Shown here one piece after another: positions 22,649-27,996 of a stretch of 41,792 nt of DNA. The notes beneath the pieces were generated by a model. That model was not told where the DNA came from. It was given only the letters and a program-made list of their open reading frames with translations, and searched no databases. The DNA is from Alistipes sp. (lineage in GTDB: Bacteria; Bacteroidota; Bacteroidia; Bacteroidales; Rikenellaceae), in the NCBI GenBank assembly GCA_017629035.1, contig JAGBXX010000031.1, forward strand, positions 1-41,792, written 5' to 3'. Position 1 is the stretch's first letter; every line of letters begins with the position of its first letter. The position numbers and the translations under genes were made by a program.

Positions 22649-25483
22649 ATGAAAACCTTTGACAGCTTTGTAGACCGCCATGTCGGTCTAAACTCTAAGC
22701 AGGACCTCGAGCAGATGCTCGCAACAATCGGTGTAAACTCTGTTGAGGAGCTCTTGCAGCAGGTCATCCCACAGAATATTCGCCTTAAGAAGGCTCTCGA
22801 CCTCCCTGAGGCAATGAGCGAGTACGAGTATGCAGCACACATCGCTGAGCTTGCAGCCAAGAACCGCACCTTCCGCTCATTTATCGGTATGGGTTACTAT
22901 CCTAACGTTGTCCCAGCAGTCGTTTCTCGCAACGTATTCGAGAACCCAGCATGGTACACATCTTACACCCCATATCAGGCTGAGATTTCGCAGGGCCGTT
23001 TGGAGGCATTGCTTAACTTCCAGACAGCTATCCTCTCGCTCACAGGCATGGAGGTGGCAAACTGCTCGTTGCTCGACGAGGCAACAGCTGCTGCCGAGGC
23101 TATGCTCATGATGTACGCTTTGCGCTCACGTGAGGCTGTTAAGCAGGGTCGCAACCAGATCTTTGTTGACGAGAATATCTTCCCACAGACCTTCGACGTG
23201 CTTATCACACGTGCCGAGCCATTTGGTATCGAGATCATCCGTGACGACTTTGCCGAGTATGAGTTCTCGGGCAAGGAGTTCGGTGCAATTTTGCAGTACC
23301 CAGCAGCTAATGGCGAGGTGCGCAACTATGCTGACTTTGCAGCTAAGGCTCACGAGGCAGGTATTACAGTTACTGCTGTTGCCGACCTGCTCTCGCTCGC
23401 TCTCTTGAAGTCACCAGCAGAGTGGGGTGCCGACATCGTCGTAGGTACTACTCAGCGTCTTGGTTGCCCTATGGGCTTCGGTGGTCCAAGCGCAGGTTAT
23501 ATGGCTACACGTGATGCTTACAAGCGTCAGATGCCTGGCCGTATCATCGGCGTATCTGTTGACCGTCTTGGCAACAAGGCATTGCGTATGTCGCTCCAGA
23601 TGCGTGAGCAGCATATCAAGCGTGAGAAGGCTACATCGAACATCTGTACTGCTCAGGCATTGATGGCTTCGATGGTAGGTTTCTACTGTATCTATAATGG
23701 TAAGGAGGGATTGCAGCGTGCAGCGCTCAACGCTCACACCGCAGCACTCACCGTGAAGGCTGCCCTCGAGTCTATGGGCTATGTTGTTCGCACCAAGGCT
23801 CTGTTCGACACCTTGGAGGTTGAGGCCGAGGCTTCAGTAATCCAGGATGCAGCGCTTGCTCGTGAGATCAACTTCTACTATCCTGCTGACGACTGCGTGC
23901 GCATGTCATTCGACGAGGTTACTACCGATGCAGAGCTCCAGACTGTTGTCGAGATCTTTGCTGAGGCTCGTGGCAAGAAGGCTAAGGCTGTAAAGCGTGT
24001 TGAGGCAGCAGCTATCGCTGAGGATGTTAAGCGTGAGAGCGACTTCTTCACCGAGGCAGTATTCAACTCATACCGCACCGAGACCGAGATGATGCGCTAT
24101 ATCAAGAAGCTTGAGTTGCGTGATATCTCGTTGATGAACTCTATGATCTCGCTCGGCTCTTGCACCATGAAGCTCAACGCTGCGCAGCTTATGCAGCCAC
24201 TCTCATTGGCAGGCTTCCAGAATGTTCACCCATTTGCTCCTGCTGACCAGTCGGAGGGCTATCGTGAGCTTATCACTAACCTCGAGAGCTACCTTGCAAC
24301 AATCACTGGCTTTGCAGGTTGTACTTTGCAGCCTAACTCAGGTGCTGCGGGCGAGTATGCAGGTCTTATGATGATCCGTGCATACCACCAGAGCCGTGGT
24401 CAGGGCTATCGTAACATCATCCTCATCCCATCATCTGCACACGGTACTAACCCAGCTTCAGCAGCTATGGCGGGCATGAAGATTGTGATTGTGGCATGCG
24501 ACCAGAATGGTAACATCGACGTTGAGGACTTGAAGAAGAAGGCCGAGGAGCACGCATCAGAGCTCTGTGGTTTGATGGTAACATACCCATCTACTCACGG
24601 TGTATTCGAGAGCCGTATTCGTGATATCGTTGACGCCGTACACGATGCTGGCGGTCAGGTATATATGGATGGTGCTAACATGAACGCTCAGGTGGGCCTC
24701 ACTAACCCTGGCTACATCGGCGCTGATGTCTGCCACCTTAACCTCCACAAGACCTTTGCAATGCCTCACGGCGGTGGTGGTCCTGGCGTAGGTCCTGTAT
24801 GTGTTGCTGAGCACCTTGTTAAGTTCTTGCCAACGCACTCTTTGATGGAGACTGGTGGCGAGGAGGGTATCACAGCTGTATCTTCATCACCATGGGGCTC
24901 GGCTATGTTGCTCCCTATCACCTACGGTTATATCCGTATGCTCGGCTTCGAGGGCTTGCGTCGCTCTACAGAGCTTGCTATCGTGAATGCTAACTACATG
25001 TCATCAGCCCTCAAGGATGAGTATCGCACATACTACTCTGGCGAGACTGGCCGTGTAGGTCACGAGATGATCCTCGACCTCACTCGTTTCAAGCACGACT
25101 ATAATATCGATTGCGGCGATATCGCTCACCGTCTTATGGACTACGGCTACCACGCTCCAACCCTCTCATTCCCAGTACACGAGACATTGATGGTTGAGCC
25201 TACTGAGAGTGAGTCTAAGGCCGAGATGGATCGCTTCATCCAGTCGCTCATTCAGATTAAGCGTGAGTGCGAGGCGGCAGCTGCTGCGGGCAACGCTGAT
25301 AACGTTGTTGTCAACGCTCCACACACTGCTCTCGAGCTCGCTGGCGAGTGGAACCACCCATACTCACGTGAGGAGGCTGCATTCCCACTTGCTTGGGTTG
25401 CAGAGAACAAGTTCTTCCCTTATGTGACTAAGATCGACAATGGTTATGGTGATCGTAATCTTGTTTGTCGCTGCACAGAGTAA
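22649..25483 (+). CDS. gcvP: Glycine dehydrogenase (decarboxylating), glycine cleavage P protein
   Basis: PLP enzyme that decarboxylates glycine and passes the aminomethyl group to the lipoyl H protein. The 944-residue single chain fuses both halves of the P protein. The N-terminal half has FIGMGYYPNVVPAVV, the C-terminal half SMISLGSCTMKLNA, the active-site lysine K701 in LNLHKTFAMPHGGGGPG, and GTNPASAAMAG. It follows the kinase gene by 30 bases. Codon use favours CCA, TCA and ACT more than the surrounding genes, as for other highly expressed genes here. No glycine riboswitch is visible. Its stop codon is the first three bases of a tandem palindromic element. Confidence 0.97.
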   Translation: MKTFDSFVDRHVGLNSKQDLEQMLATIGVNSVEELLQQVIPQNIRLKKALDLPEAMSEYEYAAHIAELAAKNRTFRSFIGMGYYPNVVPAVVSRNVFENPAWYTSYTPYQAEISQGRLEALLNFQTAILSLTGMEVANCSLLDEATAAAEAMLMMYALRSREAVKQGRNQIFVDENIFPQTFDVLITRAEPFGIEIIRDDFAEYEFSGKEFGAILQYPAANGEVRNYADFAAKAHEAGITVTAVADLLSLALLKSPAEWGADIVVGTTQRLGCPMGFGGPSAGYMATRDAYKRQMPGRIIGVSVDRLGNKALRMSLQMREQHIKREKATSNICTAQALMASMVGFYCIYNGKEGLQRAALNAHTAALTVKAALESMGYVVRTKALFDTLEVEAEASVIQDAALAREINFYYPADDCVRMSFDEVTTDAELQTVVEIFAEARGKKAKAVKRVEAAAIAEDVKRESDFFTEAVFNSYRTETEMMRYIKKLELRDISLMNSMISLGSCTMKLNAAQLMQPLSLAGFQNVHPFAPADQSEGYRELITNLESYLATITGFAGCTLQPNSGAAGEYAGLMMIRAYHQSRGQGYRNIILIPSSAHGTNPASAAMAGMKIVIVACDQNGNIDVEDLKKKAEEHASELCGLMVTYPSTHGVFESRIRDIVDAVHDAGGQVYMDGANMNAQVGLTNPGYIGADVCHLNLHKTFAMPHGGGGPGVGPVCVAEHLVKFLPTHSLMETGGEEGITAVSSSPWGSAMLLPITYGYIRMLGFEGLRRSTELAIVNANYMSSALKDEYRTYYSGETGRVGHEMILDLTRFKHDYNIDCGDIAHRLMDYGYHAPTLSFPVHETLMVEPTESESKAEMDRFIQSLIQIKRECEAAAAAGNADNVVVNAPHTALELAGEWNHPYSREEAAFPLAWVAENKFFPYVTKIDNGYGDRNLVCRCTE

Positions 25484-25895
25484 TTTATCGTTATAAGGGG
25501 TCATCTGCGACCTCTCAATCATTACCCCGAATGGGACGTACGCCAAGTACTACCCATCCGGGGTAATCTCTTTATCGAGTCCACATCTAACCCCTTCTAA
25601 CGATAAATCAAGTTTCTTGTAGCAATGGCCCATCTGCGGCCTCTCAATCATTACCCCGAATGGGACGTACATCAAAGTACTACCCATCCGGGGTAATCTC
25701 TTTATCGAGTCCACATCTAACTCCTTCTAACGATAAATCAAGTTTCTCTAGCTATGGGGTCATCTGCGGCCTCTCAATCATTACCCCGAATGGGACGTAC
25801 GCCAAGTACTACCCATCCGGGGTATCTCTTTATCGAGGGCATATCCAACCCCTTCTCAAATATCATAGGAGGCGAATATGACCCCTTCTCAAACA
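25481..25895 (+). repeat. Tandem array of three 130-bp palindromic units
   Basis: Three nearly identical units with spacings of 129 and 130 bases fill the 445-base gap behind gcvP. Each contains ATTACCCCG, a single A, ATGGG, then two GTAC tetranucleotides 5-6 bases apart, then CCCAT, a single C and CGGGGTAAT, forming a long hairpin with one A-C mismatch. Centres are at about 25544, 25673 and 25803. Unit 1 is also framed by 20-base imperfect terminal inverted repeats: 25481-25500 and 25591-25610 agree at 18 of 20 positions. Unit 3 has lost one A in its right arm and its right terminus has drifted. No open frame of likely coding value lies in the array. Confidence 0.93.
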
Positions 25896-25896
25896 A

Positions 25897-25925
25897 AAAA
25901 GGCTGTTCAATTCGAACAGCCTTTT
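25897..25925. terminator. Bidirectional terminator behind gcvP and the four-helix membrane protein gene
   Basis: GGCTGTTC (25901-25908) and GAACAGCC (25914-25921) pair perfectly around AATTC, with A4/T4 flanks extending the stem. It ends three bases before the stop of the minus-strand gene. Confidence 0.85.
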
Positions 25926-25928
25926 GCT

Positions 25929-26279
25929 TTAGATATTCTCCTGTTTGTACAGGCTTCGGTATATCAGCAAGTAGACCAGCAGGATGATGCCATTGGTAAT
26001 GATGTAGGCAGGAGTGCTGAACTCGCAGAATGCGAAGACAACGTTTGTGCCAATCATCACCAGCGCAACGACCCACGATGTTATGCTCAGAAGCACCGAG
26101 CCACGAGGGTTGCTTGTTGTGGCGCCGAGGGCCAGGAACAGTGGCACGCCTATGGCGATAAATGCACCTGCGGTGACTAACCAGCGAAGCGAGTCGTAGT
26201 CGCAAATAGTGTAGCAGGCATAAGCAATAAGTGCACTGAGTGCTACGGCAACGAGTGCCTTAACGAAATCTATCTTCAT
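25929..26279 (-). CDS. Small four-helix membrane protein
   Basis: A 116-residue integral membrane protein with four hydrophobic segments at about 6-28, 33-53, 61-84 and 90-110 and a short charged C-terminal tail. It has no enzyme motif and I do not recognise a family. It is the last gene of a cassette with the zinc-ribbon, SPFH and GYF_2 genes (5-base gap to the preceding gene), so it may be the membrane anchor or partner of that system; this is inferred from position only. Confidence 0.8.
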   Translation of the reverse strand: MKIDFVKALVAVALSALIAYACYTICDYDSLRWLVTAGAFIAIGVPLFLALGATTSNPRGSVLLSITSWVVALVMIGTNVVFAFCEFSTPAYIITNGIILLVYLLIYRSLYKQENI

Positions 26280-26284
26280 GACTA

Positions 26285-26617
26285 TTACTTATTTACGTTA
26301 GACAATAGCACTAGCTTAAGTGCCTCAGGTACATCGCCCACACGCTTCCATGCCGTGAGGCCACGATACCAGATGAGCGTATCCTTATTGACACGACCAG
26401 CCGCGATAAGCTGGCTGAGCTCCGCCTCGCTTAAGGGGCCTGCTTGAGCACCATCCACGGCAACGAAATATTCACGCTGCTGAGCTATGGGTGCTCCTGC
26501 GCCAGGAACGGCCATGTTGCCAATGGCGTGATTCATAGTCTCGACCATCTGCTGAGCCACAGCGAGGCTCATACCAAATTCCATGAGTCGCTCAATAGAG
26601 CTAAAGTCGTTGTTCAT
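26285..26617 (-). CDS. GYF_2-domain protein
   Basis: A 110-residue protein. The C-terminal half, EYFVAVDGAQAGPLSEAEL through DTLIWYRGLTAWKRVGDV, is a GYF_2 (DUF4339) domain, a small module thought to bind proline-rich peptides. The same domain ends the SPFH protein encoded just upstream, so the two share an interaction module, probably by duplication. The first 40 residues form amphipathic helix. It sits 17 bases behind the SPFH gene and 5 bases before the membrane protein gene. Confidence 0.85.
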   Translation of the reverse strand: MNNDFSSIERLMEFGMSLAVAQQMVETMNHAIGNMAVPGAGAPIAQQREYFVAVDGAQAGPLSEAELSQLIAAGRVNKDTLIWYRGLTAWKRVGDVPEALKLVLLSNVNK

Positions 26618-26634
26618 AGTTTACACGTTTTAGG

Positions 26635-27996
26635 TTAAAGTGCTGGAGGTGTAGGTGGCACTGGTGGTACTGGAGGCATAGGTGGCATTACGGGTGCAAA
26701 GAGCTGTGCGAGCTCTGCCACGTTGCCTGCAGCCTCCCAGCCAGCCATGCCCTGCTTCCAGACGAGAGTCTGCGCAGTGAACTGTCCCATCTGAGCAAAC
26801 TGCTGGAGCTGAGGGATGGTGAAAGGACCACTCTGCTGACCATTCACAGCGACAAAGTATTGTGTTGTAGGCATAGGTGGTGGGGTGTTCATAGTCTGCT
26901 GCATATTGCCACCCATCTGGTTCATCATGCCGGCCATCTGGTTGCCAAGAGCGCCACCCATCATCATGCCTGTCATCATACCTGCAGGGTTCATATTGCC
27001 ACCGCCACCCATGTTCGACATATTGCCAAGGCTCTGCATACCTGCGCGCATAACCTCGGTCTGCTGGTCGAGGGCGTGAGCACCCATGAAGTTGGTCTCG
27101 GTCTGTAGACGCTGTGCACGCTGCATCTCCTCACGCTGGATGCGCAGGCTCTCTTCCATATTCTGGGCATTGATGCGCTGTGTATCCTGAAGGTTCTGGA
27201 TGTTTACATCGGTCTGGGCAGTGATTGTCTTCTCCTGCTGTGCTGCGGTAACACGACGAAGCTCAAGGTAGCCCTCGCTCTCCTTGTCTACATCGATAGT
27301 GCCCACATCGAAGCGCTTGACTGTGACGCCGAAATCGTCGGCAAGGTCTGCCTTAATCTTCTCCTGGATGATGTCGCTGATGTCTGCAATGCGACGCTCA
27401 ATCTGGAGCACAGGGATCTGGTAGTCGCAAGGAGCATTTGCCACAATGCTCTTAACACGCTTAATAACAGCGCTCTTAATCTGCTGCTCGAGCTCCTCGA
27501 TGTCGAAGTTTATGAGTCGGTGCTTCTTGATGAAGTCCTGGTAGTCGGTGATGTTAAACGTAAGAGTACCACGTACGGCCATAGGCACGCCAAAGTCCAT
27601 GAAGCGTGGGTCGTAGACGTCGAAATATGGTACGCCAAACTTAATCTGAACAACGCCTGCAAGGTTGATGAAGTATACCTCTGCCTGGAATGGGGTGTCG
27701 CCATTGTATGCCAAACCGATAATACCCGAGAGCACAGGGAAGTTTGCTGTCTTGATAATATCGTCGTGTGGGCCCATGATGAAGTCCTGGCAGGTGCCAT
27801 CCTTCTGCGTGTATACGAATACTGCAACCTCACCATCCTTAACACGCAGTGAGCTGCCCCAGCGAATAGCATTCTCACGCTTTGTTGAGTTAGCCTCGCC
27901 TGAAGGACGCCATTTCCATACCAAATATTCAGGCTCGTCGCAGCGGATGACATCCATCATTCCGCTATTCTCTTTTCTGTTGCCAAAGAGTCCCAT
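26635..27996 (-). CDS. SPFH-domain protein with C-terminal GYF_2 domain
   Basis: A 453-residue protein. Residues about 20-250 form an SPFH/Band-7 domain of the type often labelled virion core protein (YdjI-like). A coiled coil rich in Gln and Glu follows (about 245-310), then a Met/Gly/Asn-rich flexible stretch (about 320-375), a GYF_2 domain (QYFVAVNGQQSGPFT to TLVWKQGMAGWEAAG, about 382-430) and a Pro-rich tail (PPMPPVPPVPPTPP). The tail is a plausible ligand for the protein's own or its neighbour's GYF_2 domain. B. subtilis YdjI is encoded with the membrane-stress protein PspA, which suggests an envelope scaffold role here; that is analogy only. Confidence 0.88.
   Translation of the reverse strand: MGLFGNRKENSGMMDVIRCDEPEYLVWKWRPSGEANSTKRENAIRWGSSLRVKDGEVAVFVYTQKDGTCQDFIMGPHDDIIKTANFPVLSGIIGLAYNGDTPFQAEVYFINLAGVVQIKFGVPYFDVYDPRFMDFGVPMAVRGTLTFNITDYQDFIKKHRLINFDIEELEQQIKSAVIKRVKSIVANAPCDYQIPVLQIERRIADISDIIQEKIKADLADDFGVTVKRFDVGTIDVDKESEGYLELRRVTAAQQEKTITAQTDVNIQNLQDTQRINAQNMEESLRIQREEMQRAQRLQTETNFMGAHALDQQTEVMRAGMQSLGNMSNMGGGGNMNPAGMMTGMMMGGALGNQMAGMMNQMGGNMQQTMNTPPPMPTTQYFVAVNGQQSGPFTIPQLQQFAQMGQFTAQTLVWKQGMAGWEAAGNVAELAQLFAPVMPPMPPVPPVPPTPPAL

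Follow-up and report, generated by a model that had tools for sequence, protein, structure and literature searches.

What lies directly behind the glycine dehydrogenase gene gcvP on contig JAGBXX010000031.1 of this Alistipes sp. genome, and how does it come to begin on the stop codon itself? We analysed a stretch of 41,792 nucleotides (the window) around the gene. The initial annotation had described three head-to-tail units of about 130 bp that start at the gcvP stop, and TRF, folding and, for gcvP, Pfam confirmed this. The units occupy 25481-25856, the TAA stop (25481-25483) overlaps the left end of unit 1, and TRF reported a single array at 25502-25856 (period 130, 2.8 copies, 91% matches). 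The limits first given for the array, 25481..25895, are right at the start only; the repeat identity of unit 3 stops near 25856 and the remainder, 25857-25895, is a linker holding a short partial repeat. Terminal inverted repeats had been claimed for unit 1 with 18 of 20 positions matching; the arms are present, with a measured match of 17 of 18. The ordinary terminator announced past the array was also found. The units had been said to differ by a few bases, mostly in loops or linkers, with the stem kept. This is true of the inner core; in units 2 and 3 the outer stem is not kept, its arms having decayed. Since the changes are concentrated in these arms, identities among the three whole units are only 0.87-0.89 (Table 1). 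Compared with 200 shuffles, the hairpin of unit 1 had z scores of -9.55 on the forward and -10.51 on the reverse strand, and a half-apex pattern matched five times in the window against 0 expected from shuffles. Downstream, on the reverse strand at 26285-27996, there are two adjacent genes with a GYF_2 domain, one of them also with a Band 7/SPFH domain.

Table 1. Features of the gcvP locus and of the repeat array behind it (positions in the window; CM, covariance model).
Feature	Position	Strand	Evidence or remark
gcvP (glycine dehydrogenase)	22649..25483	+	Pfam PF02347, PF21478; ORF list
Unit 1, complete element TAATTT...AAAT	25481..25608	+	CM match 25481-25608 on - strand, E 2.8e-32, unit 1 having belonged to the model's own training set
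Unit 1 outer arms	25483-25500 / 25591-25608		17/18 positions matched
Unit 1 core hairpin, apex GGGAC-GTAC-GCCAA-GTAC-TACCC	25521..25567	.	
Unit 2, core kept (95% identity to unit 1), left arm decayed	25609..25738	+	CM match 25610-25738, E 5.1e-22
Unit 3, core kept (93% identity to unit 1), both arms decayed	25739..25866	+	CM match 25740-25861, E 4.7e-21
Ordinary terminator-like hairpin, past the array and ahead of a convergent ORF	25897..25925	.	

The array had been considered too regular for a plain terminator and, actually, it belongs to a dispersed family of palindromic repeats. Its comparison to a MITE was also appropriate, given that the copies are short, numerous and dispersed and have inverted repeats at their ends. 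In its own genome unit 1 had 29 blastn matches (E <= 0.001), two of them being the opposite strand of window units, and among 41 genomes (25 of the genus and 16 others of the order) 12 had matches, the own genome included, every one within the genus. A covariance model (R1) was built on the antisense strand of 22 own-genome units, drawn from 25 of the 29 blastn loci (the other four overlap or adjoin those). The 26 apex matches found there were reduced to 22 in the alignment by dropping one partial copy (C1_2034), window units 2 and 3, and C25_17056, which starts without TAATTT and has instead a TAG stop followed by GT and then ATTT. At E <= 0.001, with at most 57 candidates scored per genome and match counts that may include both strands of one palindrome, R1 found copies in 40 of 61 genus genomes, the own genome included. 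With stricter filters (E <= 1e-6, 23 candidates scored per genome) in a sample of 149 genomes of the order, the own genome matched and none of the 148 others did. The exact apex pattern matched 106 stretches in 84,980 species genomes; among the matches listed (80 of 106) all records were named Alistipes sp. or Rikenellaceae bacterium, and nearly all carried ruminant-gut sample names. These 80 named loci were selected through the exact type-A apex. Named records have copies at coordinates that recur in the genus genomes (for example L191 and G067:C148, 2012-2138), from which the genus is taken to be Alistipes. In these searches the family was found only in Alistipes. Carriage by phages or plasmids was considered and set aside, as blastn of unit 1 had no match in phages or plasmids and the exact patterns had none in viral contigs. 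No Rfam family matched the array units, and the four matches obtained with a permissive threshold all fell at 25878-25960, on the ordinary terminator. Other core types were seen within the same outer arms (GGGCTGTAC..GTACTATCCC, CTAACAAAAAATGCCGTC..GACGGCATTTTTGCCGAG and TGTCTGAAAAATGCTCATTTAC..GTAAACTCCGC, in L057 of genome G017, L060 of G024 and orthologous-site loci). Cores appear exchangeable between arms, and one own-genome copy (C4_6431) is mosaic-like.

A complete copy is about 127 bp long and forms one long imperfect hairpin, built of outer arms (AATTT-NNN-GTGATAAGG / CCTTCTRAC-NNN-AAATT), then a middle stem, then an inner stem whose apex is conserved. The stems stay paired through compensatory changes and, on the antisense strand, G.U pairs. 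From the antisense alignment RNAalifold predicted 40 pairs (-54.5 kcal/mol), 27 of them with double changes, against 16 pairs (-27.2 kcal/mol) from the sense alignment. In the antisense structure 96.6% of the cells are paired, and covariation scored 0.493, compared with 0.175 in shuffled alignments (0 of 500 shuffles reached it), a comparison that favours the structure since it came from the same alignment and kinship among copies can exceed shuffles. A hand-drawn sense structure of 39 pairs has 87.4% of its cells paired and a covariation of 0.343 against 0.108 (again 0 of 500), with further pair types not above shuffles. The sense-strand stems contain 66 A.C cells, 22 of them from one invariant column, against 9 G.T cells. 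Over 158 copies there were 692 G.T pairs on the antisense and 107 on the sense strand, and the antisense strand folded better in 147. The variable triplet of the outer arms has 20 forms and was exactly complementary in 82 of the 105 copies that could be parsed out of 140 (35 were unparseable), the shuffled mean being 23.5 and the maximum 34. Furthermore, elements on a TAG stop end in C (3/3) and those on a TAA stop mostly in T (88/93), and because this last base covaries with the type of stop, the stop codon itself seems to take part in the stem.

To describe placement, 220 aligned matches were reduced to 148 non-overlapping copies, a set resting in part on the best 150 of 197 matches, and the 22 own-genome units were added; ten copies too near a locus edge were removed, and stops were scored for copies other than the 25 array followers. 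This left 135 array-leading copies (20 from the own genome, 26 from G055 and 89 from the named loci). In 122 of them a long open frame, defined as at least 80 codons with no start codon needed, stops no more than 13 bases from one and the same end of the element. In 80 the stop codon coincides with bases 1-3 of the element (77 TAA and 3 TAG), in nine the frame enters the element and stops at its TGA, and ten have no such frame. In 8 of 135 a long frame ends at the opposite side of the leading unit, the side that adjoins the next unit in arrays. Exact TAA stops were found in 18 of 20 own-genome copies (slightly favourable, as it is 18 of 21 with C25_17056 counted), in 17 of 26 from G055 and in 42 of 89 named loci. 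For comparison, in the same 400 kb of G055, stretches picked because matches were listed there, 384 of 10,426 TAA words end an open frame of this length. This anchoring in one orientation had been overlooked in the initial annotation, together with the covarying arms and the better-folding antisense strand. At L154, L191, L158 and the gcvP gene of G017 about ten bases resembling an older left end (TAATTTCTTG and similar) separate the stop codon from a complete element; they look like the footprint of a lost or overwritten copy.

Several comparisons indicate that copies move and turn over. Among ten copies fetched from G074 four were identical and had different preceding sequences, and one identical pair at different genes was found in each of G056 (7 copies fetched) and G055 (23); the G074 and G056 copies came from the top of the R1 match list, some for equal scores. 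At gcvP, G000, G017 and G024 carry elements with different cores. In G011, G021 and G004, where the C-terminal 316 aa are 95-96% identical, gcvP ends in TAG without an element, and by eye the site is empty too in the other genus relatives compared. Five other sites (the first 5 of 20 joined gene ends searched) were looked for in seven genomes, and 29 of the 35 places were found; by eye eight held a clear and two a degenerate element, the rest being empty and several of them having an ordinary hairpin. Divergence of the flanks prevented a base-by-base alignment of exact empty sites. The 140 copies with usable upstream frames include 31 gene groups with an element in at least two genomes, and for 49 of 67 copies a copy beside a different gene in the same genome was more similar than any of those at the orthologous gene (4 further copies had no such comparison). 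Orthologous pairs had a mean identity of 0.773, same-genome pairs 0.765 and other pairs 0.734, and 8 of 55 orthologous pairs reached at least 85%; orthologous pairs are thus slightly more alike than other pairs, although the three means lie close together, so part of the pattern reflects inheritance. At site C26 G017 has a single element, and the flank behind it recurs in G000 behind a second, partial unit, suggesting the addition of a new unit beside the stop codon.

Other repeats were seen past some of the arrays. At L136 2122, L145 5679 and others there are long hairpins with arms made of imperfect tandem repeats (TTTAGGGAG / CTCCCTAAA, GGGGATTAT / CCCCAGTCT); in a rough test such purine hairpins occurred in 10 of 122 element flanks and in 1 of 256 element-free ORF ends. 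At many loci the last unit is succeeded by a recurrent linker like TTGGGTCGTGGTGCTAATTA, often ahead of more repeats; the linker may belong to some larger modular unit.

The family therefore combines dispersal, recent copying, one-sided anchoring, paired arms and a bias to fold on the antisense strand. We consider it probable that these palindromes of about 127 bp are non-autonomous mobile elements, anchored at stop codons and copied in trans by some enzyme encoded elsewhere. This enzyme would copy the element perhaps through the folded antisense strand and place it so that its left end completes or abuts a stop codon. New units would be added beside the stop codon, ahead of the older unit, as one site (C26) suggests. 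In the mRNA the hairpin would be the 3' end region and may help to end or protect the transcript.

The main competitor, which we regard as possible but clearly less likely, is that they are cis-acting 3'-UTR elements, terminators or protectors of mRNA ends, kept by selection and spread by recombination of gene ends without being mobile themselves. The copies are indeed mostly downstream of a gene in sense orientation, and in G055 the ORF next to the leading copy is convergent in 15 of 25 cases, against a background of 84 of 284. At least six T in the ten bases after the core were found in 54 of 120 cases in sense and 24 of 94 in antisense, a modest bias; a stricter count gave 36 of 158 and 3 of 158. 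A consensus scan of the array found a terminator-like site on the forward strand of each unit, albeit with a short alternative stem, and one on the reverse strand of unit 2, a total for the region of five with the ordinary terminator against 0.4 expected. Several element-free relatives have, by eye, an ordinary hairpin and T-run right behind the stop. However, the strand that folds better is the wrong one for an mRNA hairpin, function alone does not need zero distance to the stop codon, and identical copies at different genes do not fit this explanation.

The strength of the antisense fold, in pairs, energy and G.T content, would also be expected of a family of RNA genes, in which a structured antisense RNA from the element acts on the convergent transcript or in trans. 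We find this improbable, as no Rfam family matches the units, no promoter-like site appeared at 25400-26000 with a simple consensus, and the next ORF is co-directional in 10 of the 25 G055 cases, which therefore have no obvious source of an antisense transcript.

Domain searches for a mobiliser covered 27 genus genomes, several of them incomplete, of which 15 bear copies and 12 had no R1 match. The Y1 transposase domain PF01797 was found in none of the 27, nor in the own genome (85% complete), and it was detected in 5 of 14 known genomes used as positive controls. The proposed link to REP/BIME sequences with a RAYT transposase is accordingly not upheld, and derivation from REP/RAYT or IS200/IS605 systems is now very improbable. 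Small palindromes behind genes would suit it, and GTAG REPs often give the TAG stop to flanking ORFs (PMC3733652, in the part available), but the units here measure about 127 bp, have long terminal arms and lack GTAG at either end, these letters being confined to the antisense apex. The least credible alternative is that of integron attC-like recombination sites, which also lie right behind an ORF with covarying stems and fold on the bottom strand; no integron integrase (TIGR02249) was above the cut-off in the 27 genomes, and gcvP is a core gene found in 24 of 24 genus relatives searched and not a cassette. Weaker TIGR02249 matches were present in all 27 genomes and all 14 controls, as expected for ordinary tyrosine recombinases. 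The other upstream genes we take, from their C-termini, to be housekeeping genes as well, and no attC R-box consensus is apparent by eye in the elements.

Other candidates had no support in the 27 genomes either. The IS110/IS1111 DEDD transposase domain PF01548 was found in none, IS630 DDE_3 had two weak matches and none above the cut-off, and the reverse transcriptase domain RVT_1 was in 10 of 27 without relation to the copies (5 of 15 copy-bearing genomes against 5 of 12 without match). IS110, IS630, Y1/RAYT, integron integrase and reverse transcriptase were all set aside as mobilisers on this basis. No target-site duplication was seen: the 117 last-in-array copies have varied right flanks (TGG 23, TAG 12, TAT 12), beginning with TG in 29, TA in 29, TT in 20 and others in 39, and a duplication of TA or of the stop codon at the right end is unsupported by them. 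A longer element with the same ends was not found in 400 kb of G055, where 33 of 64 left arms were unpaired; by eye these looked degenerate or chance-like.

The interpretation as mobile elements, which we still prefer, has against it that no mobiliser was found among the domains searched, no target duplication in the right flanks and no longer element with the same ends in the 400 kb of G055, that ordinary insertion does not explain the exact placement on the stop codon, and that some orthologous copies are alike, so that part of the pattern is inherited. A broader proposal, which we put forward as speculative, is that they represent a new class of mobile DNA aimed at stop codons, perhaps through translation termination or the 3' end of the mRNA, and mobilised in the form of a folded single antisense strand by an enzyme outside the transposase families tested. 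If true, such a class would make the 3' ends of core genes interchangeable between species; nothing found accounts for how the elements reach stop codons and yet spare the remaining genome. Since natural insertions are numerous and known genes offer both empty and refilled sites, targeting, strand use and the effect on transcript ends are directly testable. The turnover suggests a rapid replacement of gene 3' ends in Alistipes, which bears on the evolution of terminators and operon ends.

In the literature searched, mostly outside subscription journals, no paper on these Alistipes repeats was found. Like intrinsic terminators they have a hairpin behind genes with, in part of the copies, a T-rich stretch; unlike them they occur as identical dispersed copies of about 127 bp, with outer arms including the stop codon and an antisense strand that folds better. 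A 2026 survey of perfect inverted repeats describes, in the part available, that in bacteria these repeats peak 50-80 bp past the stop codon (PMC13155455), a looser association than that of the Alistipes elements. ERIC/RU-1, Correia/NEMIS and RUP are also short, intergenic, non-autonomous, dispersed and folded, near genes and with terminal inverted repeats. According to the available portion of PMC2229807, ERIC affects upstream transcripts depending on its orientation, and most MITE-like repeats of this kind have TA ends and yield target-site duplications; compared by description, the Alistipes elements differ in having no TA duplication, one prevailing orientation and the left end on the stop codon. 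YPAL/RU-2 of Yersinia (168 bp, with internal inverted repeats and target duplications of 3-26 bp) shares the palindromic form and the filled and empty sites, and is said to be co-translated with upstream genes, but stop-codon anchoring does not appear in its published description as far as that same portion goes. GTAG REPs are mostly downstream of coding regions and their ends often supply the stop codon, so this supply is itself already known; they are, however, 20-40 bp long with a GTAG tag at one end and Y1 transposases, none of which is true of the Alistipes elements (PMC3733652, same part). ERIC, YPAL and GTAG REPs are thus the nearest described systems, and anchoring in one orientation with covarying arms and no Y1 enzyme lies outside their descriptions as given in these partial sources.
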